Source: Myxococcales bacterium (GTDB taxonomy: Bacteria > Myxococcota_A > Polyangia > Haliangiales > SHYZ01). From it: a stretch of 56,134 nucleotides of DNA. The notes beneath the pieces are model-generated. The model had not been told where the DNA came from, did no database searches, and saw only the letters and a list, made by a program, of their open reading frames with translations. The stretch's first letter is position 1. Each line of letters begins with the position of its first letter. The translations under genes and the position numbers were made by a program. Below are positions 1,469-51,989 of this stretch, piece after piece. The stretch covers positions 1 to 56,134 of the forward strand of contig SHYZ01000004.1 of assembly GCA_009692535.1 (NCBI GenBank), in the 5' to 3' direction.

Positions 1469-3615
1469 GGCGCTCGCGCAGCGCGCGGTGGCGGCAGCGC
1501 GCGCGCCATGAACTGCGCGCGATCGGCGACCGGCTGCCAGCCGAGCTCCTGCTTCGGCCGCGAGTTATCGAAGCGCCGAGCCGCGGCGCGCGTGGCGAGG
1601 TCGGTCCAGCTCGGCGGCTGCGCGCCCGGCTTGCGGATCGCCTTCTTCACCGCGTACTTGAAGTACTCCTCAGCGAACCAGCTCCAAATGGCCTGCGGAT
1701 GGAAGACGAAGTCGCGGCCGAGTCGCTCGCGCAACTGCGCCACCCAATCGCGCGCGGTCAGGAGCACGTCGCCGACCAGGTTGTAGGAGCGCCCCGCCGC
1801 TGCCGGCAGCGTCGCCATCTTGATCAGCGCCTCGGCGACATCGTCGACCAACACGAACGGCAGCGGCAGCCGACCGCCGCCCCAACCGAAGACCTGGCTG
1901 TCCTTGGCCCAGAAGCCGACGCCCGAGTGCTGCGGCGCGCCGCTCGCGCCGACCACGAAGCCGGGCCGCGCGATGACGAGGTCGAGACCGAGCTCGGTCG
2001 CCGCCTGCAGCAACGCCGCCTCGGCCGCGATCTTCCCGCGCGCATAGAGGCTGCGCGTGTCGGGCGTGGGGTCGAGGGGCGTCGCTTCGGTCACGGGCGC
2101 TGCGTTGCTGTCGGAGAGGTCGTAGGCGGCGATCGAGCTGGTGTAGACCAACCGCGTGACTCCGGCTCGCTTGCACGCCGCCGCCACCGTCCGCGCGCCG
2201 CCCACCATCGTCCGCGCGAACTGCTCCCAGGTGTCGCCGCCACCGGTCGCGAGGTGGATCGCCGCGTGGCAGCGTGCGGCCGCACGTTCGAGCGCCGCGG
2301 CATCCGTCACGTCGCCGGCGAAAAGCGTGACGCCGGGATCGCGCAACGCATCGGGCACGAACGCCGGCTTGCGCACCAGCGCATGGACGCGCTTGCCGTC
2401 GCGCAGCAGCCGCGCGACGACGTGACTGCCGATGAAACCGTTGGCGCCCGTGACCAGGATCGCATCGCGCGGCGCGCCGGGGGCCGGCGTGGCGTAGTTC
2501 GCGGCCGGGACGATCGACGGCGTGACCGCCGCAACCGTCGACTCCGACTCTGGCACCGCGGCCGCAGCGAGTTCGCACGCCTCGACCACGTCGAGACCCT
2601 GCCGCGCGTTGCAGGGATAGCGCGCCCCGCCCCGCAAACTGGCATGGAACGCCGCGATCGCGTCGCGCATGCCGACGTAAAACGGGTCGCTCCGCCCCTT
2701 CAACTTGAGCGTCGAGAGCACGTAGTCGAGCGCATTGCTCCAACCCTGCCGCAGCAGCGAGCGGGCGTTCCACTGCGCGTTCTTCAACTGATCCCAGAAG
2801 TCGGGCCACGGCGTTTTCTGCAACTGCGTCACGTGGCCACGCAACAGATCGACGTGCAGCGAGCCGTCCGGACCGAGCAGCCGCAGGAAGCTCTCGGCGA
2901 AGTCGCGCCCGAACGACAGGAAGAGCGACGCCGTGCCGCGCTCGTGGGTCAGCGACAGCTGCCAGGTGTCGTAGAAGACGACGCCCGGCGCCAGTTCACG
3001 CCGCCCACCCGGCGCCGCGGTCACGCTGCGCACCGGCCCCAACAGATCCACGAGCTGCGAGAACGGGTGGGTTGCCTGCTCGAACACGATGTTGCGCGGC
3101 GCCCTAAACATGTAATGCGAGAAGTCGCGCGTCGTGAGCTGCCGCAACGGCACCGACAAGCAGGCGAACACATGGTCGAGCGGGCCGAGCTGCTGCTCGC
3201 CGAGTCGCCGTTTCGCCTCGGTGAACGCCGGATGGAACGTCGCGTTGTGGTTGACCGCGAGCGGGAGCTTCAGCGACTCGGCGAGCTGCAGCAGTCGCAG
3301 CGCGTCGGCACGCGAGGTCGCGATCGGCTTTTCGAGGAAGACGCCCACGCCGGCTTCAAGCAGCTCCGTCGCGACCTCGACGTGGCGTTGCGGCGGGACC
3401 AGCGCGTGGGCGATGTCAGGCTTGCCAGCCGCGACCAGCTCGGCGATCGAGCCGTGCACGCGCGTGACGCCGTGCTTGCGCGCCAACGCCTCCGCGCGCG
3501 CGCGGTCGAGGTCGACCAGCGCCACCACCTCGACACCCGGCAGCTTGGTCAGGATCTGCAGGTGGTAATCGGCGATGAAGCCGGCCCCCACCACCGCCAC
3601 CTTGGTCGTCGCCAT
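1465..3615 (-). CDS. Gfo/Idh/MocA oxidoreductase fused to an NAD-dependent epimerase/dehydratase
   Basis: This 716-residue protein joins two NAD(P)-binding enzymes. Residues 1 to about 375 are a Gfo/Idh/MocA oxidoreductase: it begins with a Rossmann motif (VAVVGAGFIADYH) and holds the EKP signature (VFLEKPIATS). After a short Ala/Pro linker, residues about 385-716 form an extended SDR. That domain has the TGANGFIGS dinucleotide loop and a YxxxK catalytic pair at Tyr524 and Lys528. The usual family members are separate proteins of roughly 350 and 320 residues. ATG at 3615 was chosen because the Rossmann strand begins five residues later; the open frame upstream looks non-coding. The downstream GT4 gene overlaps by four bases. 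Likely role: making or modifying a sugar precursor for the glycosyltransferase (inference). Substrates are unknown. Confidence 0.85.
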   Translation of the reverse strand: MATTKVAVVGAGFIADYHLQILTKLPGVEVVALVDLDRARAEALARKHGVTRVHGSIAELVAAGKPDIAHALVPPQRHVEVATELLEAGVGVFLEKPIATSRADALRLLQLAESLKLPLAVNHNATFHPAFTEAKRRLGEQQLGPLDHVFACLSVPLRQLTTRDFSHYMFRAPRNIVFEQATHPFSQLVDLLGPVRSVTAAPGGRRELAPGVVFYDTWQLSLTHERGTASLFLSFGRDFAESFLRLLGPDGSLHVDLLRGHVTQLQKTPWPDFWDQLKNAQWNARSLLRQGWSNALDYVLSTLKLKGRSDPFYVGMRDAIAAFHASLRGGARYPCNARQGLDVVEACELAAAAVPESESTVAAVTPSIVPAANYATPAPGAPRDAILVTGANGFIGSHVVARLLRDGKRVHALVRKPAFVPDALRDPGVTLFAGDVTDAAALERAAARCHAAIHLATGGGDTWEQFARTMVGGARTVAAACKRAGVTRLVYTSSIAAYDLSDSNAAPVTEATPLDPTPDTRSLYARGKIAAEAALLQAATELGLDLVIARPGFVVGASGAPQHSGVGFWAKDSQVFGWGGGRLPLPFVLVDDVAEALIKMATLPAAAGRSYNLVGDVLLTARDWVAQLRERLGRDFVFHPQAIWSWFAEEYFKYAVKKAIRKPGAQPPSWTDLATRAAARRFDNSRPKQELGWQPVADRAQFMARALPPPRAARAP

Positions 3616-43487: not shown

Positions 43488-43522
43488 GATTGAAGTTTCA
43501 ACTTTCAATCGGTCGAAGTTTC
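43488..43522 (+). promoter_or_regulatory. AT-rich inverted and direct repeats before the DUF4143 gene
   Basis: GATTGAA (43488-43494) and TTCAATC (43504-43510) form a 7-bp inverted repeat around a nine-base centre. GAAGTTTC occurs at 43492-43499 and again at 43515-43522. The patch is AT-rich in an otherwise very GC-rich region and sits 11 bases before the ATPase start, so it looks like an operator or promoter. The binding protein is unknown. Confidence 0.45.
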
Positions 43523-43532
43523 GCTCCGCGCC

Positions 43533-44754
43533 ATGTTCCGCCCCCGCGACCTCTCCGACGCCATCGAGCGCGCCTGCCGCAGCTTCCCCTGCGTGCTGGT
43601 CACGGGGCCGCGCCAGTCGGGCAAGTCGACCCTGCTGCGCCAGCGTTTCGGCGGCTCGCACGCATACGTCTCGCTCGACCAGCCCGACGCGCGCGAGCGG
43701 GCGCGGCGCGACCCGTCCGGCTTCTTCCGCCGCCATCCCGCGCCACTGATCCTCGACGAAGTCCAGCACGTCCCGGAACTGCTCTCCTACGTCAAGGCGA
43801 TGGTGGACGAGAACCGCCGGCCGGGCCAGTTCCTGTTGTCGGGCTCGCAGTCGTTCGCGCTGATGCAGGGCATCAAAGAGTCGCTGGCGGGCCGCGTCGC
43901 GGTGCTGACGCTGCTGCCGCTGTCGGCGGGAGAGATCGCCGGGCGCGTCCGCGACGCCCGCGACCGCGAGCCGATCCCGGCGCGCTGGATCGCCGGGCAG
44001 GGCGAGCTCCCGAAGCGGATCGCGCTGGCGCGCTGGTTGATGCGCGGCGGCTACCCTGAGCGCTGGTTCGCGCGCGGCGTCGATCAGGAGCTGTGGGCGG
44101 CGAGCTACGTGCAGACCTACCTCGAACGCGACGTGCGTTCCTTGATCGGCGTGCGCGACCTGAACGCGTTCGCCACCTTCCTGCGCCTCGTGGCGGCGCG
44201 CACCGGCCAGATCCTGAACCTCTCCGATCTCGCGCGCGACGCCGGCATCACCCATCCGACCGCCCGCCCGCCAATGGATCTCGGTCCTCGAGGCGAGCCA
44301 CCAGGTCCTGCTACTGCGCCCCCACTACGCCAACCTCGGCAAGCGGCTGATCAAGGCGCCGAAGATCTACTGGCTCGACACCGGCATCGCCGCCCATCTG
44401 GTCGGCCTCGACGAGCGCACCGTGACCACCCACGCGATGGCCGGCGCGCTGTTCGAGACCGCCGTCGTCGCCGAGATCCTGAAGGCGCACCACCATCGCG
44501 GCCGCGAGCCGCGCCTCTGGTACTTCCGCTCGCGCGACGGCTGGGAGGTCGACGTAGTGATGGAGCGCGGCGGCAAGTTGCACGCGATCGAGATCAAGCT
44601 CACCGCGACGCCGCGCCCACTCCACGCCGAGCCGCTCGAACGCTTCCGCCGCGCGACCAAGACCACGGCCGTCCCCGGCTTCGTGATCTGCGACGTCCAC
44701 CAACCCGAGCCGCTCGCGCCCGGCGTCACGGCGATGCCGTGGGGTCTGCTGTAG
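43533..44754 (+). pseudogene. DUF4143/AAA-type ATPase, frameshifted
   Basis: The first 245 codons encode a typical AAA_14/DUF4143 ATPase: Walker A VTGPRQSGKSTLLRQ, Walker B LILDEVQH, sensor LLSGSQSFALM, and the start of the DUF4143 winged helix (LARDAGITHPTA). The frame then shifts at a GCCC tandem repeat (44261-44271). The rest of the protein continues in the +1 frame to 44754: QWISVLEASHQ, IYWLDTGIAAHL, FETAVVAEI and the nuclease-like LWYFRSRDGWEVDVVM and AIEIKLT. Removing four bases would restore a normal protein of about 405 residues. The family is associated with mobile or toxin-antitoxin-like loci. Either a recent inactivation or a phase-variable tract is possible. Confidence 0.85.
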
Positions 44755-44809
44755 CACCGACGGCTCCCGCATCGTCGCGGCGCGGAACCGGTGGCAGTCG
44801 AGGCGCCGG

Positions 44810-45730
44810 GTGTGGGTAGCGTTCGCGGTCGTTCTGGAGAACACCTTGAGTTCCGTCGCATGTTCGTTCGGCCTCGTGCTTCTGTCGCATTGTGCACCGC
44901 CCTCGGACTCGATCCAGGGCGCGCCGGTCGCTGCTCCCGCCTCTGGCGAGCGTGGCGCGTCGGCGGCAGCACCGGCGGTCGCTCCGTTCGACCACTCCGA
45001 CTGGGACACGATCCTGAAGCAGCACGGCAATGGCGACCGCGTCGACTACGCCGCGTTGAAGGCCGACCGCGCTCCGCTCGACGCTTACCTCGACCGCGTC
45101 GCGAAACTGCCGGCCGAGGCGCTGGCGAAGCTCCCGCGCGCGGACCAGATGGCGTTCTGGATCAACGCCTACAACGCGCTCACGCTGCAGACCATCGTCG
45201 ACCACTATCCGATCGCGGCGTCGGGCCTTTCGGCGCTGCGCTTCCCGAACAGCTCGATCCGCCAGCTCGACGACCCGTGGGGCAGCAAGCACACCATCGC
45301 CGGCGCACAACGCTCGCTCGATGACATCGAGCACAAGATCCTGCGCGCCGAATGGAAGGACGCCCGCATCCACGCCGCCGTCAACTGTGCGAGCGTCGGC
45401 TGCCCGCCGTTGCGCCTGGAGGCCTTCACCGGCGAGCAACTCGAAACGCAGCTCGACGAGCAGATGCGGCAGTTCGTCGCCGACCCGCTCCGCAACAAGA
45501 TCGACCCGGCGCAGAAGAAGATCGAACTCTCGCCGATCTTCGACTGGTTCGGCGAAGACTTCGGCACCAAGGCCGGCGGCAAGGGCAGCACGAAGGAGAG
45601 CGAGCGCGCGCTGCTCGCCTGGCTCGAGAAGTACGGCAAGCCTGAGTGGAAGGAGTTCCTCGCGAGCTTCGACCCCGACGACGTCGACTTCCTCGATTAC
45701 GACTGGACGCTGAACGAAGTCGTCCGCTGA
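44810..45730 (+). CDS. DUF547 domain lipoprotein-like exported protein
   Basis: The 306-residue product has a hydrophobic N-terminus (VACSFGLVLLSHCAPP, resembling a lipobox) and an Ala/Pro linker. A DUF547 domain follows: WDTILKQHGNGDRVDYAALK, LPRADQMAFWINAYNALTL, HAAVNCASVGCPPLRLEAF and WFGEDFG. The domain has a papain-like fold in some members but is mostly uncharacterised. GTG at 44810 is the first start; another could lie within the signal region. The kinase of the DGR begins 50 bases after its stop. Confidence 0.85.
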   Translation: MWVAFAVVLENTLSSVACSFGLVLLSHCAPPSDSIQGAPVAAPASGERGASAAAPAVAPFDHSDWDTILKQHGNGDRVDYAALKADRAPLDAYLDRVAKLPAEALAKLPRADQMAFWINAYNALTLQTIVDHYPIAASGLSALRFPNSSIRQLDDPWGSKHTIAGAQRSLDDIEHKILRAEWKDARIHAAVNCASVGCPPLRLEAFTGEQLETQLDEQMRQFVADPLRNKIDPAQKKIELSPIFDWFGEDFGTKAGGKGSTKESERALLAWLEKYGKPEWKEFLASFDPDDVDFLDYDWTLNEVVR

Positions 45731-45780: not shown

Positions 45781-48700
45781 ATGCCTGCCGACCCAATGAA
45801 TCCGCCGGCGGACGCGCCGCCGCCTGATCGCGCCGCTGGCGATGCGCGCGCGCTCGAACTCTTCGCGGTGTGGCTCGGCCGCCACAATGACGAAGTCGAC
45901 GACGCGAGCTTCGAGCGGATCTGCCGCGACCACGCCGAGATCGCCGCGGAGCTGCGCCGGCTGAAGCGCACGCTGGAACAGGTGGCGGCGGCACTGCCGC
46001 GCGAGGAGTCACCCGACGGCGTCGCTGATCGCCTGGCCGCGCAGTTCGGCGACGAGGTCGATCCGCGGATCTCGCTCGACGGCACCGACGAGCGCGCGCA
46101 CGCTGGCGCGAGCCGCGGCGCGGTCCATCCGCCGCCCACCTCGACCTGGTCGCGGCTGGTCGAGCGCATCCGCGGCCGCACGGCGCCGAGCACTCGCTAC
46201 ACGGTCGGCGAGGTGCTCGGCAAGGGCGGGATGGGCGTGGTCTATTCGATCTGGGACGCCGACCTGCGCCGCCGCCTGGCGATGAAGGTGATCCGCCGCA
46301 GCGGCGAACGCGAGGCGCCGCCGCCACGTCTTGGCGCGACGCCGTCGCCGGCAGCCGTCGCCACTGCGCAAGCGCCGATCGATCTGGTGAGCCTCGGCCG
46401 CTTCATCGAAGAGGCGCAGATCACCGGGCAACTGAACCACCCCGGCATCGTGCCGATCCACGAACTCGGCCTCGACGCCGACGGCCGCGTCTACTTCACG
46501 ATGCGCCTGGTGAAGGGCTCGACCTTCGCGCAGGTGATCGAGTGGGCGGCGACCGGCGAGCAGGGCTTCAACCCGACGCGCGCGCTCTCCGTGCTGGTCG
46601 CGGTGTGCGACGCGCTCGCCTACGCGCACGCGAAAGGCGTGGTCCATCGCGATCTGAAGCCGGCCAACGTGATGGTCGGCCACTTCGGCGAGACCTATGT
46701 CATGGACTGGGGCCTCGCCCGCGTGCGCGGCCAGAAGGACCGCCACGATCTGCGCTTGAAGGTCACCGACACCACGCGCTTCAAAACCGAGCGTGACGAG
46801 CCGGCCTCCTCGCGCGATGACGCGCAGCTGATGACGATGGACGGCGCCATCGTCGGCACGCCGGCCTACATGCCGCCCGAGCAGGCGTTCGGCAAGACCG
46901 AGCTGATCGACGCGCGCGCCGATGTCTACGCGGTGGGCGCGATGCTCTACCACCTGCTGACGCGGCGCATGCCCTACGTCGAGCCCGGCGCGCGCATGTC
47001 GCCGCGGATGATCCTCCTGGCGGTGCAGCATGGCCCGCCGAAGCCGCTGCACGAGATCGATGCCACGGTGCCGGCCGAGCTCGCCGCCATCTGCGAACGC
47101 GCCATGGCCCGCGAACTCGGCAAACGCTACGCGAGCACGCAGTCGCTGGCTGGCGAACTGCGCGCCTATCTCGAACACCGCGTCGTCGCCGCCTACGAGA
47201 CCGGCGCCGTCGCCGAGCTGAAGAAGTGGATCGAGCGCAACCAGGCGCTGGCCGCGTCGCTGGTGGCGGTGGTGGTGCTGGCGATCGGTGGGCTGAGCTG
47301 GAACGCATGGACGAGCCATCGGCATAACGAGGCAATCGCGACGAAGAATCGCGATCTCACCACGGCCAACGCGATTGCCGAGCAGAACGCGTCGGACGCG
47401 CGCGAGCAGGCGACCCGCGCCGACGCCGCCAAGCGCGAGGCGGAGGCGAATCTCGCCGACGTGCTGCGATTGGGCGACATCAAGCGGGTGCGCGATCTCG
47501 AGGCGCGCGCCAAGGAGCTGTGGCCGGCACGGCCGGAACTTGTGCCGGAGATCGAGGGGTGGATCGCGGACGCGAAGGAGGTCGTGAGCCGGCTCGATGC
47601 GCACCGAGTGTCGCTGGCGACGCTGCGGGAGAGGGCGCTGCCGGCGGACGCGCCGGAGGAGACGACCAGCGTCACGGCGCAGCGGCGGGAAGCCGAGCAG
47701 CGGCAGCGGCGCGAGGATCTAAAGCGGCTCGACGCGTTCCTCGCGAAGCGCGCGGAAGCGCTGGCAGCAGCCGATCAGGCGGAGAGTGCGGCGGCCGACG
47801 CCGAGACGAACGCCGAGAAGAAGGAAGCTCTCGGCGCCGCGCTGGCGGGATTGGCGATACAGCGCGCGGCCGTAGCGGAGGAACTGCGGGGCGGCAGCGG
47901 TGGTCGTGGCACCGACGCAGGCGCCGAAGCGGGCGCCTCTGCGTCCGCCGATCGCGTCTGGCGATTTGCCGCCGACGCCACCAGGCCGCAGTGGCGCCAC
48001 GATCAGCTTGCGGAGCTGGTCGCCGCGATCGAGGCGCTGCAGGCTGGGATCGAGGCTCCCGCGGAAGTGGTCGCCTCATGGAATCCGTCCGCCACCGAAG
48101 CGGCGCCGCCCGCTGCCTTCGTGCCGGCGGCCGCGACGATTGCCGCGCTGCAGCGGCGCATCGACCACGCGGCGTGGGTCGAGCAGGTGTCGCTGGATGA
48201 GGCGCTCGACGCCTGGCAGGAAGCGATCACGCGCATCGCCACGAACCCGAAGTACGCCGTCTTCGCCGATCGCCCGTTCAAGGAGCAGATCGGACTGGTG
48301 CCGATCGGCCCCGATCCCGACTCCGGGCTCGAGGAGTTCTGGCACGTCGGGACGGGCGCGCGGCCAAAGCACGATGCGACGAGCGGTCACGTCGTGATGC
48401 GCGACGCGACCGGCGTCGTTTTCATCCTGCTGCCGGGGGGCACCTTCACCATGGGCTCCCGCGATCCCGACGCCGACCACGCGGTCGGCACCCCGAACGT
48501 CAATCCCGTGTTGCGGAGCGACGAGCAACCTCCCCACGCCGTGTCGCTGGCGCCGTTCTTCGTCTCGAAGTTTGAGCTGACGCAGGCGCAATGGCTGCGG
48601 GTCGCCGGCAGCAATCCAAGCTGGTTCCAGGAGCAGGACGGGATCGGCAGGGCCTATCCGGCGACTTCACCCGTTGAGCAGGTGTGGTGGGACGTCGCGC

Positions 48701-49212
48701 ACGATCAGTGCGCCGCACTGGAACTGCGGCTGCCGACCGAGGCGCAGTGGGAGTACGCCGCGCGTGCGGGCACGACCTCGGTCTATTGGTGCGGCGATGA
48801 TCCGGCGGAGATCGATCACCGCAAGGCGGGCAACATCTTCGATCAGAAGGCTATTTCCGTCGGCTACTCGGTGCCGAAGACAGGTTCGACGGAAGCTTGG
48901 GACGATGGCTTCAGTGATGTCGCGCCAGTCGGGACGTTTACGGCGAATCCGTTCGGTCTTCACGACGTGATCGGCAACGTTTGGGAGTGGTGCGAGGACG
49001 AATACGCCGGCGACTACGAGAGCGCCCCCGCACGTCCCGGAGACGGAGAGCGATCGCTTCCCGTGCAGGCTGGCACCCGCCACCGCGTCTTCCGCGGCGG
49101 CGGCTGGCTCAACGGGGCCGTGTACGCGCGTTCGGCGAGCCGCTACCGGGGCGATCCCTCGGACCGCATCAACAGCCTCGGCGTCCGTCCCGCCAGGGTC
49201 ATCACTTGGTGA
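45781..49212 (+). CDS. Transmembrane Ser/Thr protein kinase with C-terminal FGE/C-type-lectin-fold domain; DGR target protein
   Basis: The 1143-residue product has, in order: an N-terminal helical region; a Hanks-type kinase (residues about 138-470) with GKGGMGVVY, Lys169, HRD at 289-291, DWG in place of DFG at 309-311, and GTPAYMPPEQA; one membrane helix (about 489-511); a long charged coiled coil with Ala-rich parts (about 515-860); and an FGE-sulfatase domain (about 865-1143). That domain shows LLPGGTFTMGS, RLPTEAQWEYAARAG, GLHDVIGNVWEWCED and VFRGGGW. The catalytic cysteines of true FGEs are absent from the last part, so this is a ligand-binding C-type-lectin fold. Residues about 1099-1139 are encoded by the DGR variable repeat. 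ATG at 45781 begins the conserved region. The kinase faces the cytoplasm and the lectin fold the outside: a receptor whose sensor end can be rewritten (inference). Confidence 0.93.
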   Translation: MPADPMNPPADAPPPDRAAGDARALELFAVWLGRHNDEVDDASFERICRDHAEIAAELRRLKRTLEQVAAALPREESPDGVADRLAAQFGDEVDPRISLDGTDERAHAGASRGAVHPPPTSTWSRLVERIRGRTAPSTRYTVGEVLGKGGMGVVYSIWDADLRRRLAMKVIRRSGEREAPPPRLGATPSPAAVATAQAPIDLVSLGRFIEEAQITGQLNHPGIVPIHELGLDADGRVYFTMRLVKGSTFAQVIEWAATGEQGFNPTRALSVLVAVCDALAYAHAKGVVHRDLKPANVMVGHFGETYVMDWGLARVRGQKDRHDLRLKVTDTTRFKTERDEPASSRDDAQLMTMDGAIVGTPAYMPPEQAFGKTELIDARADVYAVGAMLYHLLTRRMPYVEPGARMSPRMILLAVQHGPPKPLHEIDATVPAELAAICERAMARELGKRYASTQSLAGELRAYLEHRVVAAYETGAVAELKKWIERNQALAASLVAVVVLAIGGLSWNAWTSHRHNEAIATKNRDLTTANAIAEQNASDAREQATRADAAKREAEANLADVLRLGDIKRVRDLEARAKELWPARPELVPEIEGWIADAKEVVSRLDAHRVSLATLRERALPADAPEETTSVTAQRREAEQRQRREDLKRLDAFLAKRAEALAAADQAESAAADAETNAEKKEALGAALAGLAIQRAAVAEELRGGSGGRGTDAGAEAGASASADRVWRFAADATRPQWRHDQLAELVAAIEALQAGIEAPAEVVASWNPSATEAAPPAAFVPAAATIAALQRRIDHAAWVEQVSLDEALDAWQEAITRIATNPKYAVFADRPFKEQIGLVPIGPDPDSGLEEFWHVGTGARPKHDATSGHVVMRDATGVVFILLPGGTFTMGSRDPDADHAVGTPNVNPVLRSDEQPPHAVSLAPFFVSKFELTQAQWLRVAGSNPSWFQEQDGIGRAYPATSPVEQVWWDVAHDQCAALELRLPTEAQWEYAARAGTTSVYWCGDDPAEIDHRKAGNIFDQKAISVGYSVPKTGSTEAWDDGFSDVAPVGTFTANPFGLHDVIGNVWEWCEDEYAGDYESAPARPGDGERSLPVQAGTRHRVFRGGGWLNGAVYARSASRYRGDPSDRINSLGVRPARVITW
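49076..49198 (+). repeat. DGR variable repeat (VR) in the kinase-FGE gene
   Basis: These 123 bases align without gaps to the template repeat at 51548-51670. All 15 differences are at template adenines (to G eight times, T five times or C twice by eye). The 3' 25 bases, ending CCGCCAGGG, are identical, as expected for the initiation-of-mutagenic-homing segment. Twelve codons are AAC in the template; ten of them differ here, at residues 1101, 1104, 1110, 1115, 1120, 1122, 1124, 1128, 1130 and 1132. The stop codon lies 12 bases after the repeat. Confidence 0.95.
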
Positions 49213-49487
49213 CTCTTACGACTTCACCGACCGCATTGGCGATCACCGTGAAGCATCGCTGAGGTCCGCGGTCCGCAGGCCAAGCGCAGCGTGGCCGAAG
49301 GACGGCGGACCGGCCGGGAGCAAGGCGGTGAACCTGGCGCGGAATCGGGAATGACGAGTCCGCATTGCGCGCAATGAGCGGCCGCACGGATTGACATCAA
49401 ACGTGCGATGCGGATGCTGCCCCGATTTTTTTCGATGGCGGTTCGGCAAAGGGTGGGTACTGGGCGGTCTCCTTATGGAGACTCGCG
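49213..49487 (+). other. Intergenic region between DGR target and accessory genes: stem-loop and promoter-like box
   Basis: GGTCCGC (at 49263 and again at 49270) can pair with GCGGACC at 49305-49311, enclosing an inner GGCCA/TGGCC stem (49278-49296). This is a candidate terminator or a cruciform downstream of the VR. A consensus TTGACA lies at 49391-49396 but the matching -10 is weak. A T7 run follows at 49426-49432, and the HRDC gene's GGAG ribosome site is at 49477-49480. No protein is credible here. Confidence 0.5.
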
Positions 49488-50126
49488 ATGCGCGTCAGAC
49501 TGCTCACGTTCCGCTATTCCGCGACACTCGGCGGCTTCGATGACACGCCGCTGGTCGAACTGCTGCGCGACAAGGAACTGATCTCCTTCCGCGAGCACTT
49601 CTTCGCGGTGAACGAAGTTCCGCACCTGACCTGCGTCGTTACGTGGCAGGAGGCGCTGGTGCCGACGCATCGGATCGGCTCGGGAGCAGCCGTTGGCGCC
49701 GTGCCGTCAGCCGCCGCATCCGGCAGAACGGAAACGGCCGCGCGAGCGCGATTCGAGCCAACCCCGCAAGGTCACCCCGCCGCCGAACTCGACGAGCCGC
49801 AGCGCCTGCTCTTCAATTCGCTCCGCGAGTGGCGCGCCACCACCGCGCGCGCCGAAGGCGTGCCACCGTTCCTGGTGTTCACCAACCGCCAACTCGCCTG
49901 GATCGCCACCCAGCGCCCGGAGTCGGCCAACTCGCTCGCCAATGGCCACGGCATCGGCCCGTCGAAGACGCGCCGCTATGCCGAGGCCGTGCTGCGCGTG
50001 CTGCATGGGCCACGGCCGGTGGCGGCGCCTGAACCGGGGGTGGAGTTCGATGCACCGGCTCGAGCCGGGCCGGTCCCTCCCGCCGACTTGATCGTGGCGG
50101 TCCTCACCGCGGCACCGCAACCGTGA
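49488..50126 (+). CDS. DGR-associated HRDC-domain protein
   Basis: The 212-residue product has an N-terminal domain of about 60 residues (MRVRLLTFRYSATLGGFDDT, LISFREHFFAVNEVPHLTCV) that is typical of HRDC proteins found beside DGR reverse transcriptases. A Pro/Ala linker and an HRDC domain follow at about residues 105-175 (LFNSLREWRATTARAEGVPP, LVFTNRQLAWIATQRP). HRDC domains bind nucleic acid in RecQ and RNase D; in DGRs the role is unproven, perhaps helping template or target handling. The stop overlaps the GTG of avd (GTGA), tying it into the retroelement operon. Confidence 0.9.
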   Translation: MRVRLLTFRYSATLGGFDDTPLVELLRDKELISFREHFFAVNEVPHLTCVVTWQEALVPTHRIGSGAAVGAVPSAAASGRTETAARARFEPTPQGHPAAELDEPQRLLFNSLREWRATTARAEGVPPFLVFTNRQLAWIATQRPESANSLANGHGIGPSKTRRYAEAVLRVLHGPRPVAAPEPGVEFDAPARAGPVPPADLIVAVLTAAPQP

Positions 50127-50518
50127 GCGCCATCCCGATCGATCGCCCGGCTCCGTCAACCGCCGGCCCGGAACTCCTGGTGCTGGCGCAATGGGAGGAG
50201 TTCACGGGTTGGCTTCTCGCCCACACCGGCCGCTGGCCGAAGTCGGTCCGCTTCACGCTGGCGCAGCGCGTCGAGGAGCACGCGCTCGACATCACCGAGA
50301 TGCTGGTCGAGTCGCGCTACGTACCGGCTGCACGCGCGGCGCACTTGCGTGAAGTGAACCTCCGGCTCGAGCGGATGCGCCACCTGCTGCGCCTCGCGCT
50401 CGCCACCCACGCCACCTCGAATTGCGGCTTCGAGTCCGTCATGCGCGGCATCGACGAATGCGGTCGGATGGTCCACGGCTGGCGCGAGGCGTTGAAGCCG
50501 AGGAGCACAGAGCGATGA
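50123..50518 (+). CDS. avd: DGR accessory variability determinant Avd
   Basis: Avd forms a pentameric four-helix-bundle barrel that binds the reverse transcriptase and the template RNA and is needed for cDNA synthesis in studied DGRs. The 131-residue product has the size and all-helical look of the family, with segments such as FTGWLLAHTGRWPKSVRFTL, ALDITEMLVESRYV and LRLERMRHLLRLA, and a basic C-terminus. It starts with GTG inside the HRDC gene's stop and ends inside the ATG of the reverse transcriptase (ATGA). Confidence 0.9.
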   Translation: MSAIPIDRPAPSTAGPELLVLAQWEEFTGWLLAHTGRWPKSVRFTLAQRVEEHALDITEMLVESRYVPAARAAHLREVNLRLERMRHLLRLALATHATSNCGFESVMRGIDECGRMVHGWREALKPRSTER

Positions 50519-51528
50519 AGCGCGTCGGCAACCTGTGGCCGCTGGTCACCGATTTCGGAAACCTCCGCCGCGCCGCGTTCCGCGCCGCCGCCAGCAAGCG
50601 CGACCAGCGCGGAGTCGCGGGCTTCCTCGAACGGCTCGAGCCGGAGCTCTTCGCGCTGCAGCGCAAGCTGGTCGACGCCACGTGGCGCCCCGCCCCCACC
50701 CACTCCTTCACGATCCGCGATCCGAAGACGCGCGTCATCACGGTGGCGCCGTTCTGCGACCGCGTCGTCCACCACGCGCTGATCGATCCGCTCGAGCCGC
50801 TGCTCGACCGACGTCTCTGCTTCGAGAGCTTCTCCTGCCGGCGCGGCAAGGGGACGCACAAGGCGCTCAATCACGCGCAGCGGATGCTGCGGCGGCATGC
50901 ATGGTTCCTGAAGCTCGACGTGAAGGCGTTCTTCCCGTCGCTGTCACACGCCGTGGTGATGGCGACGCTGGCGCGCATCGTGAAGGATCCAGAGGTTCTG
51001 CGGTTGGTGGAGCGGATCCTCGCGGCGCACGGAACGGGCGAAGGCGGCGCGCGCGGCGTGCCGATCGGCAACCTCACCAGCCAGTGGTTCGCGAATCTCG
51101 TGCTCGGCCGGCTCGATCACCAGGTGAAGCAGGAACTGCGGATCCCCGGCTACGTGCGCTACATGGACGACTTCGTGCTGTTCGCCGAGGACAAGGCGAC
51201 TCTGCAGGCCGCGCACGGTTGGATCGAGCGGTGGCTCGGCGAGGAGCTCTCCCTGCGGTTGAAGCCGACGGCGACCCAATTGGCGCCGGCGAGCGAGGGA
51301 TTGCCGTTCCTCGGAATCCACCTGTGGCGCGGGACGCGCCGCCTGCGACCCGCGAACCGGCGCCGCACGGTGGCGCGGCTCGCGACGCGCGGGCGGCAGT
51401 TCGCCGCCGGTCGGATCGAGGAGCCGGCCTACCTCGACAGCGCTCGCTCGATCTTCGCCCACTTGCACGGCACCGGATGCCGTGCCTTCGCGCGGCAGCT
51501 CGCAGAAAGGAGTTGTGAGCCCATGTGA
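50515..51528 (+). CDS. DGR reverse transcriptase
   Basis: The 337-residue product is a group-II-intron-related reverse transcriptase of the DGR clade. Landmarks are ITVAPFCDRVVHHALIDPL, FESFSCRRGKGTHKALNHAQ, FLKLDVKAFFPSLSHAVV (first catalytic Asp) and the DGR-specific IGNLTSQWFANLVLGRLDH, where SQ replaces the QG of other RTs. The catalytic YMDD is at residues 216-219. LPFLGIHLWRG then leads into a basic thumb. There is no endonuclease or maturase domain, as expected. The enzyme would copy the template-repeat RNA into cDNA with errors at adenines. The template repeat begins about 20 bases after the stop. Confidence 0.97.
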   Translation: MKRVGNLWPLVTDFGNLRRAAFRAAASKRDQRGVAGFLERLEPELFALQRKLVDATWRPAPTHSFTIRDPKTRVITVAPFCDRVVHHALIDPLEPLLDRRLCFESFSCRRGKGTHKALNHAQRMLRRHAWFLKLDVKAFFPSLSHAVVMATLARIVKDPEVLRLVERILAAHGTGEGGARGVPIGNLTSQWFANLVLGRLDHQVKQELRIPGYVRYMDDFVLFAEDKATLQAAHGWIERWLGEELSLRLKPTATQLAPASEGLPFLGIHLWRGTRRLRPANRRRTVARLATRGRQFAAGRIEEPAYLDSARSIFAHLHGTGCRAFARQLAERSCEPM

Positions 51529-51547
51529 TGGGGACCGGCCACTGGCT

Positions 51548-51670
51548 CCCGCAACCGCGTCAACCGCGGCGGCGGCTGGAACAACGAGGCCGTGAACGCG
51601 CGTTCGACGAACCGCAACCGGAACGATCCCTCGAACCGCAACAACAACCTCGGCGTCCGTCCCGCCAGGG
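51548..51670 (+). repeat. DGR template repeat (TR)
   Basis: This non-coding 123-base sequence is the template for the variable repeat at 49076-49198 (constant offset 2472). Weak similarity may extend left to 51541. It holds 28 adenines, mostly in AAC triplets when read in the target's frame: 12 AAC codons, which random A-mutation can turn into many residues without making stops. Fifteen adenines differ in the VR; none of the 95 other bases does. It lies downstream of the reverse transcriptase, in the same orientation. Confidence 0.96.
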
Positions 51671-51989
51671 CGTCGATCCGCCCGATCGCGATGGTCACTT
51701 GGCCAAAGGCCCCGGACCGCCGCGCCGCGCAAGTGATGCCCAGGCTGGTCTCCTGCGCTTCGATCGGGTGGACGGCTCGCGGTAGCGAGCCGCAGCCCGA
51801 TCGCGGCCGAAGAGTCATGCGCCGCCGGCCGTGGTAGCCGAGGAGACTCGGCGAAGCGGCTGGCGACGCCTCTTTTCGAGTTCGACTCGACCGACGTGGC
51901 TCCGCGAGTCGGCGGTCTCCCACTCCTCGCAAGCGCAATGGAGGACGGTGCACGCCGGGCCCGTTTCCAAGATCTTCAATCGCCGACGA
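51671..51989 (+). other. Non-coding region after the template repeat, with a strong hairpin
   Basis: No gene is credible in these 319 bases. CGGCTCGC (51773-51780) and GCGAGCCG (51785-51792) form a perfect 8-bp stem with a GGTA tetraloop, 102 bases after the TR. An 8-bp GC stem with a GRNA-type loop matches the hairpins reported near DGR target repeats, although here it lies after the TR. It could also end the TR transcript. The convergent methyltransferase gene ends at 51990. Confidence 0.55.

Follow-up and report, generated by a model that had tools for sequence, protein, structure and literature searches.

In diversity-generating retroelements (DGRs), a complex of the template repeat (TR) RNA, the reverse transcriptase (RT) and Avd makes an adenine-mutated cDNA, primed at an adenosine located 3′ of the TR in the RNA, and this cDNA replaces the variable repeat (VR). 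By what means the mutated cDNA is directed to the VR, and not the TR, and replaces it was still incompletely understood in 2026 (PMC12875486), and it is this question that is raised by a locus in the window analysed here, a stretch of 56,134 nt that makes up an entire contig. The features of the locus are collected in Table 1.

Table 1. Features of the DGR locus, with positions counted in the window
Feature	Position	Strand	Remarks
Target gene, 1143 aa	45781..49212	+	Ser/Thr kinase aa 140-454, TM-like aa 489-507, long linker, FGE-sulfatase/C-lectin aa 881-1139
Variable repeat (VR)	49076..49198	+	ungapped alignment to TR
VR 3′ flank GGGTCATCACTTGG	49196..49209	+	complementary to RNA element 51730-51741
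CTCTTACGACTTCACC, local version of the relatives' post-VR motif CTTCACnnCTTCAC	49213..49228	+	motif lies just after VR in relatives
HRDC accessory protein gene	49488..50126	+	PF00570; conserved N-terminal beta-alpha-beta-beta domain of ~55 aa
Avd (bAvd) accessory protein gene, GTG start	50123..50518	+	PF22296, PHROG Avd
DGR reverse transcriptase gene	50515..51528	+	IGNLTSQ, YMDD
Template repeat (TR)	51548..51670	+	ungapped alignment to VR
Conserved structured RNA	51680..51870	+	30 consensus pairs, 24 with compensatory changes
Putative guide CAAGTGATGCCC	51730..51741	+	complementary to VR 3′ flank, target sense strand
Conserved A immediately following the guide, candidate adenosine for cDNA priming	51742	+	CCCAG kept in most relatives
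Terminal hairpin with GTAG internal loop	51819..51869	+	relatives' alignment and consensus fold

An earlier note on this DNA had claimed a complete DGR with a gapless repeat pair of 123 bp, and the parts of such an element were all found, namely the adenine signature in TR and VR, the RT, Avd, the HRDC protein and a C-type-lectin/FGE target. Recomputation of the repeat pair gave the same result: all 123 positions align without a gap, the 15 mismatches all fall on the 28 adenines of the TR, and none of the 95 other positions is mismatched, a pattern with a hypergeometric chance of 5.3e-12. The 15 changes in the VR alter 13 codons, all non-synonymously and most of them from AAC, and make no stop. 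Extension of the repeat in the 5′ direction to 129 bp adds one T/A mismatch, at 51547, which makes 51548 a fair 5′ edge of the TR, and beyond 51670 the identity of TR and VR ends abruptly. Elsewhere in the assembly the repeat is absent, apart from one FGE paralogue, C176:6372, which was tried as a second VR and rejected, as it is an ordinary FGE gene whose differences are not adenine-only.

The HRDC, avd and RT genes overlap by four bases, as had been noted, in the form of two overlaps among the three genes (GTGA between HRDC and avd, 50123-50126, and ATGA between avd and RT, 50515-50518), and the target gene has no overlap with them. The first of the two RT motifs fits the DGR pattern [LIVM]GxxxSQ, which is present in 162 of the 173 RTs compared, and the nine RTs with QGxxxSP are all of the non-DGR group II type. 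A maximum-likelihood tree built from 113 RTs places the query, which the note had called DGR-type, inside the DGR clades: it lies in a clade of 13 rows (100/100), mostly from Planctomycetota, of which 12 have both HRDC and Avd, and this clade is nested in one of 55 rows made up chiefly of HRDC or HRDC+Avd DGRs. It is nested among RTs with TR/VR pairs of the adenine-only kind and lies apart from the QGxxxSP group II-type RTs. The best PDB match of the RT is 8ub7, which is, from its length, probably the BPP-1 RT. Avd was recognised by PF22296 above the cut-off and by the PHROG model, with the NCBIfam Avd model staying below its cut-off (70.6 vs 80). The HRDC protein carries a RecQ-type HRDC domain with a PDB match to the HRDC of RecQ, preceded by a conserved and well-predicted N-terminal domain of 55 aa; only the HRDC part was matched in the PDB, and the fold of the N-terminal domain found no match there. 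Judged by these sequence features, the locus is a genuine DGR and apparently an intact one.

The order VR-HRDC-avd-RT-TR had been presented as a departure from the classic phage layout. It does differ from that of phage BPP-1, but it is not remarkable, since it recurs in many genomes: the order target-HRDC-avd-RT-TR with an adenine-only TR/VR pair is shared by 18 or more related loci of Planctomycetota type, and further loci in several phyla have the same order and signature. A TR downstream of the RT has been published as structural group 2 (PMC3521204), and HRDC has been published as a DGR accessory gene (PMC4891356, PMC10053308). The layout was therefore rejected as a novelty and, as the relatives share it and both the TR-downstream order and HRDC were already in print, the locus is one more example of a known DGR type.

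The host of the contig is a separate matter. Its PdxS and NadA match those of Planctomycetota genomes, with up to 72% and 63%, and no such matches were found among the 8 other genomes searched in the order to which the assembly is assigned. No other genome of the 35 searched in that order gave an RT match above 45% identity, and a strong RT match was found in 13 of 154 genomes of the class to which the relative L009 belongs. By the style of its genes, the remainder of the assembly seems to resemble Myxococcota; tetranucleotides did not discriminate the host of the contig, and rpoB is absent from the assembly. Misbinning of a contig from Planctomycetota is the probable explanation, and a likelier one than horizontal transfer of the region.

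In the target protein, the loop motifs of the kinase (HRDLKPAN, DWG) are intact, a single TM-like segment stands out (hydropathy 2.2), and the C-terminal domain, assigned to PF03781, carries the VR at its C-terminus and has its best PDB match in 2y3c, the TvpA of Treponema denticola. The order kinase-TM-FGE-VR is also found in L002, L004, L009 and L249. From this arrangement we infer a putative membrane receptor kinase whose diversified ligand-binding tip would lie outside the cytoplasm.

The earlier reading of the cassette held for the DGR proper, and what it missed lies 3′ of the TR. The alignment of the relatives showed a conserved block of ~190 nt after the TR, and RNAalifold, applied to 13 sequences, gave the consensus pairs and compensatory changes listed in Table 1. 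The strand ..GTGATGCCCAG.. lies inside this RNA block in most loci. A known RNA family was considered and rejected, the best Rfam hit being a sub-threshold RcsR1 (18 of 60 bits). The conservation of this RNA with covariation also bears on the rival view of the DGR as a relic, fixed or dead and without current activity. The single VR state in the assembly would suit a relic, which we nevertheless regard as very improbable, as the VR has no change at any of the 95 non-adenine positions and no stops, all genes are open, and the genes as well as the RNA are conserved across the relatives.

Within the structured RNA lies a short segment that, as comparison with about 130 relatives suggests, base-pairs with the 3′ flank of the VR in the target gene. 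At the locus itself, the RNA CAAGUGAUGCCC (51730-51741) forms 12 pairs, with one bulged T, with GGG-T-CATCACTTG of the target sense strand (49196-49208). Across 18 Planctomycetota-type loci, the duplexes of the guide with its own VR flank had a mean energy of -17.1 kcal/mol vs -11.9 with swapped partners, and in the permutation test 0 of 20,000 permutations were as good, a result that persists when near relatives are dropped. The register of the pairing is nearly fixed, its start usually lying directly after the GCCA of the VR and directly before the conserved A. Alternative Watson-Crick pairs occur at helix positions 2, 3, 4, 5, 8 and 10, with compensatory examples in L006 (GCGATGCCC/GGGCATCGC), L246 (GTGACGAAC/GTTCGTCAC) and L249 (GGGATGTCC/GGACATCCC). 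The pairing is weak in L004, L007, L010 and L019, and the motif is absent in L248. The DGRs of L246, L247 and L251 also have second VRs, and these have retained the complementary flank at places where the TR differs, to which recent duplication may contribute.

In anchored scans the same segment shows pairing with the TR flank as well (-13.0 vs -9.9; z=-5.8), less strong than that with the VR flank, and so it does in HRDC-only DGRs (z=-3.2), these and all other z-scores being exploratory because the accessory-gene grouping and the anchoring windows were picked after a first look at the data. Part of the conservation of the guide may therefore serve priming. One could go further and regard the element as an ordinary DGR, in which pairing of the segment with the TR 3′ flank serves priming and the match to the VR flank is a by-product of the shared ancestry of TR and VR; the anchored TR pairing is in keeping with this, as is the 7-bp TR/Sp pairing counted in BPP-1. 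We think this unlikely, because a role in priming only would predict the stronger pairing on the side of the TR and the opposite was seen: the VR pairing is the longer and stronger one (-17.1 vs -13.0), it covaries where the TR does not match, and without anchoring it is the only one visible.

A segment complementary to the sense strand is complementary to the target mRNA as well, and it ends up at or near the stop codon, so that the complementarity could serve RNA-RNA pairing with that mRNA (antisense control or co-transcriptional recruitment) instead of pairing with the target DNA. The register, however, follows the point where TR and VR cease to be identical and the candidate priming A. The stop codon does not keep to it, lying at distances of 7 to 71 nt in different relatives, and this explanation thus appears quite improbable.

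The dual role is proposed because the segment pairs with both flanks, with that of the TR less strongly. We consider it probable, on the strength of comparative sequence evidence, that the locus is a chromosomal-type DGR acting on a predicted membrane receptor kinase, whose C-terminal C-lectin/FGE domain it diversifies, with 51730-51741 as an RNA segment of dual use that serves priming and, by pairing with the target, selects the VR, aided by HRDC. The segment would first hold the 3′ end of the TR for priming at A51742. Afterwards the guide, now joined to the new cDNA, would pair with the target sense strand just 3′ of the VR, the RNA guide and the attached cDNA lying head to tail on the same (antisense) strand. 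It would be this pairing that selects the VR, and not the TR, as the recipient, and HRDC would bind or stabilise the guide-cDNA nucleic-acid intermediate.

The generality of the pairing was followed in other DGRs. An initial energy scan of 300 nt, in which long loops were permitted, lacked power for that reason and gave way to local and anchored scans. In the unanchored scan, VR flanks paired preferentially with the RNA of their own locus, both in the Planctomycetota clade (z=4.1) and in the HRDC-only clade (z=7.7), whereas TR flanks showed no such preference (z=0.4 and z=-0.3, respectively). Three control regions, further downstream of the VR, in the VR interior and upstream of the TR, were null; in some of the groups a strand-reversed control reached significance, probably through residual TR/VR homology past the scored end. 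For the other HRDC+Avd DGRs (n=12) the preference of guide for VR flank was not significant, and neither was the unanchored test for HRDC-less and viral DGRs; the anchored test, in which the helix had to start near the TR/VR junction, was significant, with z=2.6 for the HRDC-less and z=3.6 for the viral ones. In the BPP-1-like phage (L256), Sp AGGTGGTCA stands against TGACCACCT at the VR junction (p=0.009). The last A of this complementary stretch is Sp position 56, counted from the TR end at 3350, and Sp A56 of BPP-1 is reported to be the cDNA-priming adenosine (Handa et al. 2018).

Guide-like pairing may be the way in which such cassettes find their target. We lean, with somewhat less assurance than for the locus itself, towards the broader proposal that DGR template RNAs generally carry a guide 3′ of the TR, which ends at the cDNA-priming adenosine and pairs with the target sense strand just outside the VR, resulting in RNA-guided retrohoming; the guide would be longest in HRDC-carrying DGRs and short in BPP-1. 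If true, it would account for the choice of IMH over IMH* as the recipient, second targets elsewhere in a genome could be predicted from sequence, and DGRs could be readdressed as laboratory tools for protein evolution. Covariation of guide and target over many DGRs also makes the idea open to a direct and cheap test. The DGR papers searched make no mention of such a guide, and an earlier report is possible.

Among known systems, BPP-1 (Rauchvirus BPP1; L256) resembles the locus in its RT family and SQ motif, Avd, adenine-only TR/VR pair, C-lectin VR domain and structured RNA 3′ of the TR, and A51742 is positionally equivalent to its Sp A56; it differs in having the TR upstream of the RT, no HRDC and a tail-fibre target. 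BPP-1 also has a DNA hairpin after the VR, which target recognition needs and whose stem sequence is free (PMC3240598), so that pairing cannot be the sole means of recognition there and several elements act. No such hairpin stands out at the locus: a search of the 45 nt after the VR for the BPP-1 type (GC-rich, 7-10 bp, GRNA loop) gave a best stem of 4 bp, not above shuffles. In the chromosomal DGR of Treponema denticola (PMC4891356; PDB 2y3c), an HRDC gene likewise overlaps the RT gene and TvpA is the best match to the target domain, but its accessory gene lies between TR and RT, whereas the locus has Avd too and the TR downstream of the RT. The latter feature is shared with DiGReF group 2 (PMC3521204), the text of which is silent on HRDC and Avd. 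The conflict systems of multicellular bacteria (PMC10907252, PMC7159879) combine CLec/FGS sensors with signalling domains, Pkinase among them, and a kinase target is also listed among DGR targets (PMC10907252); unlike in those systems, no MoxR, STAND or other conflict partner was recognised beside the target of the locus. The cyanobacterial DGRs (PMC7517822) resemble the locus in having a Ser/Thr kinase fused to a diversified C-terminal CLec, which is the commonest target type there. Those proteins are mostly predicted to be cytosolic, whereas here a TM-like segment lies between kinase and CLec. The locus also contributes a kinase predicted to be a transmembrane receptor, with a ligand-binding tip open to hypermutation, and several Planctomycetota have it conserved.

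The PdxS, NadA and reverse transcriptase (RT) proteins encoded in the window (1-56134, contig G000:C76) all match Planctomycetota and are absent or distant in the assigned order, Haliangiales. The contig therefore probably comes from a planctomycete and was misbinned into an assembly that is Myxococcota-like in other respects. The same contig carries an AAA_14/DUF4143 ATPase gene resembling PADLOC PDC-S01 that is seemingly frameshifted, its C-terminal part apparently continuing in another frame, and which seems to be either a broken gene or an assembly error.

Most of the related diversity-generating retroelements (DGRs) of other genomes (L002-L011, L247, L249 and L250) share a fixed difference between the 3′ ends of the two repeats, the template repeat (TR) reading CCAAG and the variable repeat (VR) CCAGG, and this suggests that the cDNA starts just 5′ of that position. 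In the window, the TR has GCCAGG there as well. In four loci (L010, L246, L247 and L251), second VRs lie on the opposite strand near their own DGR and differ at adenines only, or nearly so; judging by these repeats, one TR serves several targets.

Features of the window and of locus L012 (another genome)
Feature	Location	Remark
AAA_14/DUF4143 ATPase	window 43494-44819	C-terminal part apparently at 44422-44754
Short tandem motif CTTCACnnCTTCAC, the window's version	window 49213-49228	shortly after VR
HRDC protein N-terminal beta-alpha-beta-beta domain	window 49488-49652	aa 1-55, conserved
DGR-type RT	L012 5346-6975	immediately 3′ of kinase gene

The N-terminal domain of the HRDC protein is common to DGR HRDC proteins across many phyla, and no PDB match to it was found. 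The stretch retrieved around the L012 RT showed neither of the accessory genes HRDC and Avd, nor an FGE target, nor a TR/VR pair.

The tandem motif is found a short way 3′ of the VR in the Planctomycetota DGRs (window, L002-L011 and L245-L251). At this position other groups of DGRs have short tandem motifs of their own, such as ATCTG repeats in viral loci and a GCAGG-like motif in HRDC-only loci. Such motifs are possibly a protein-binding portion of the target site.
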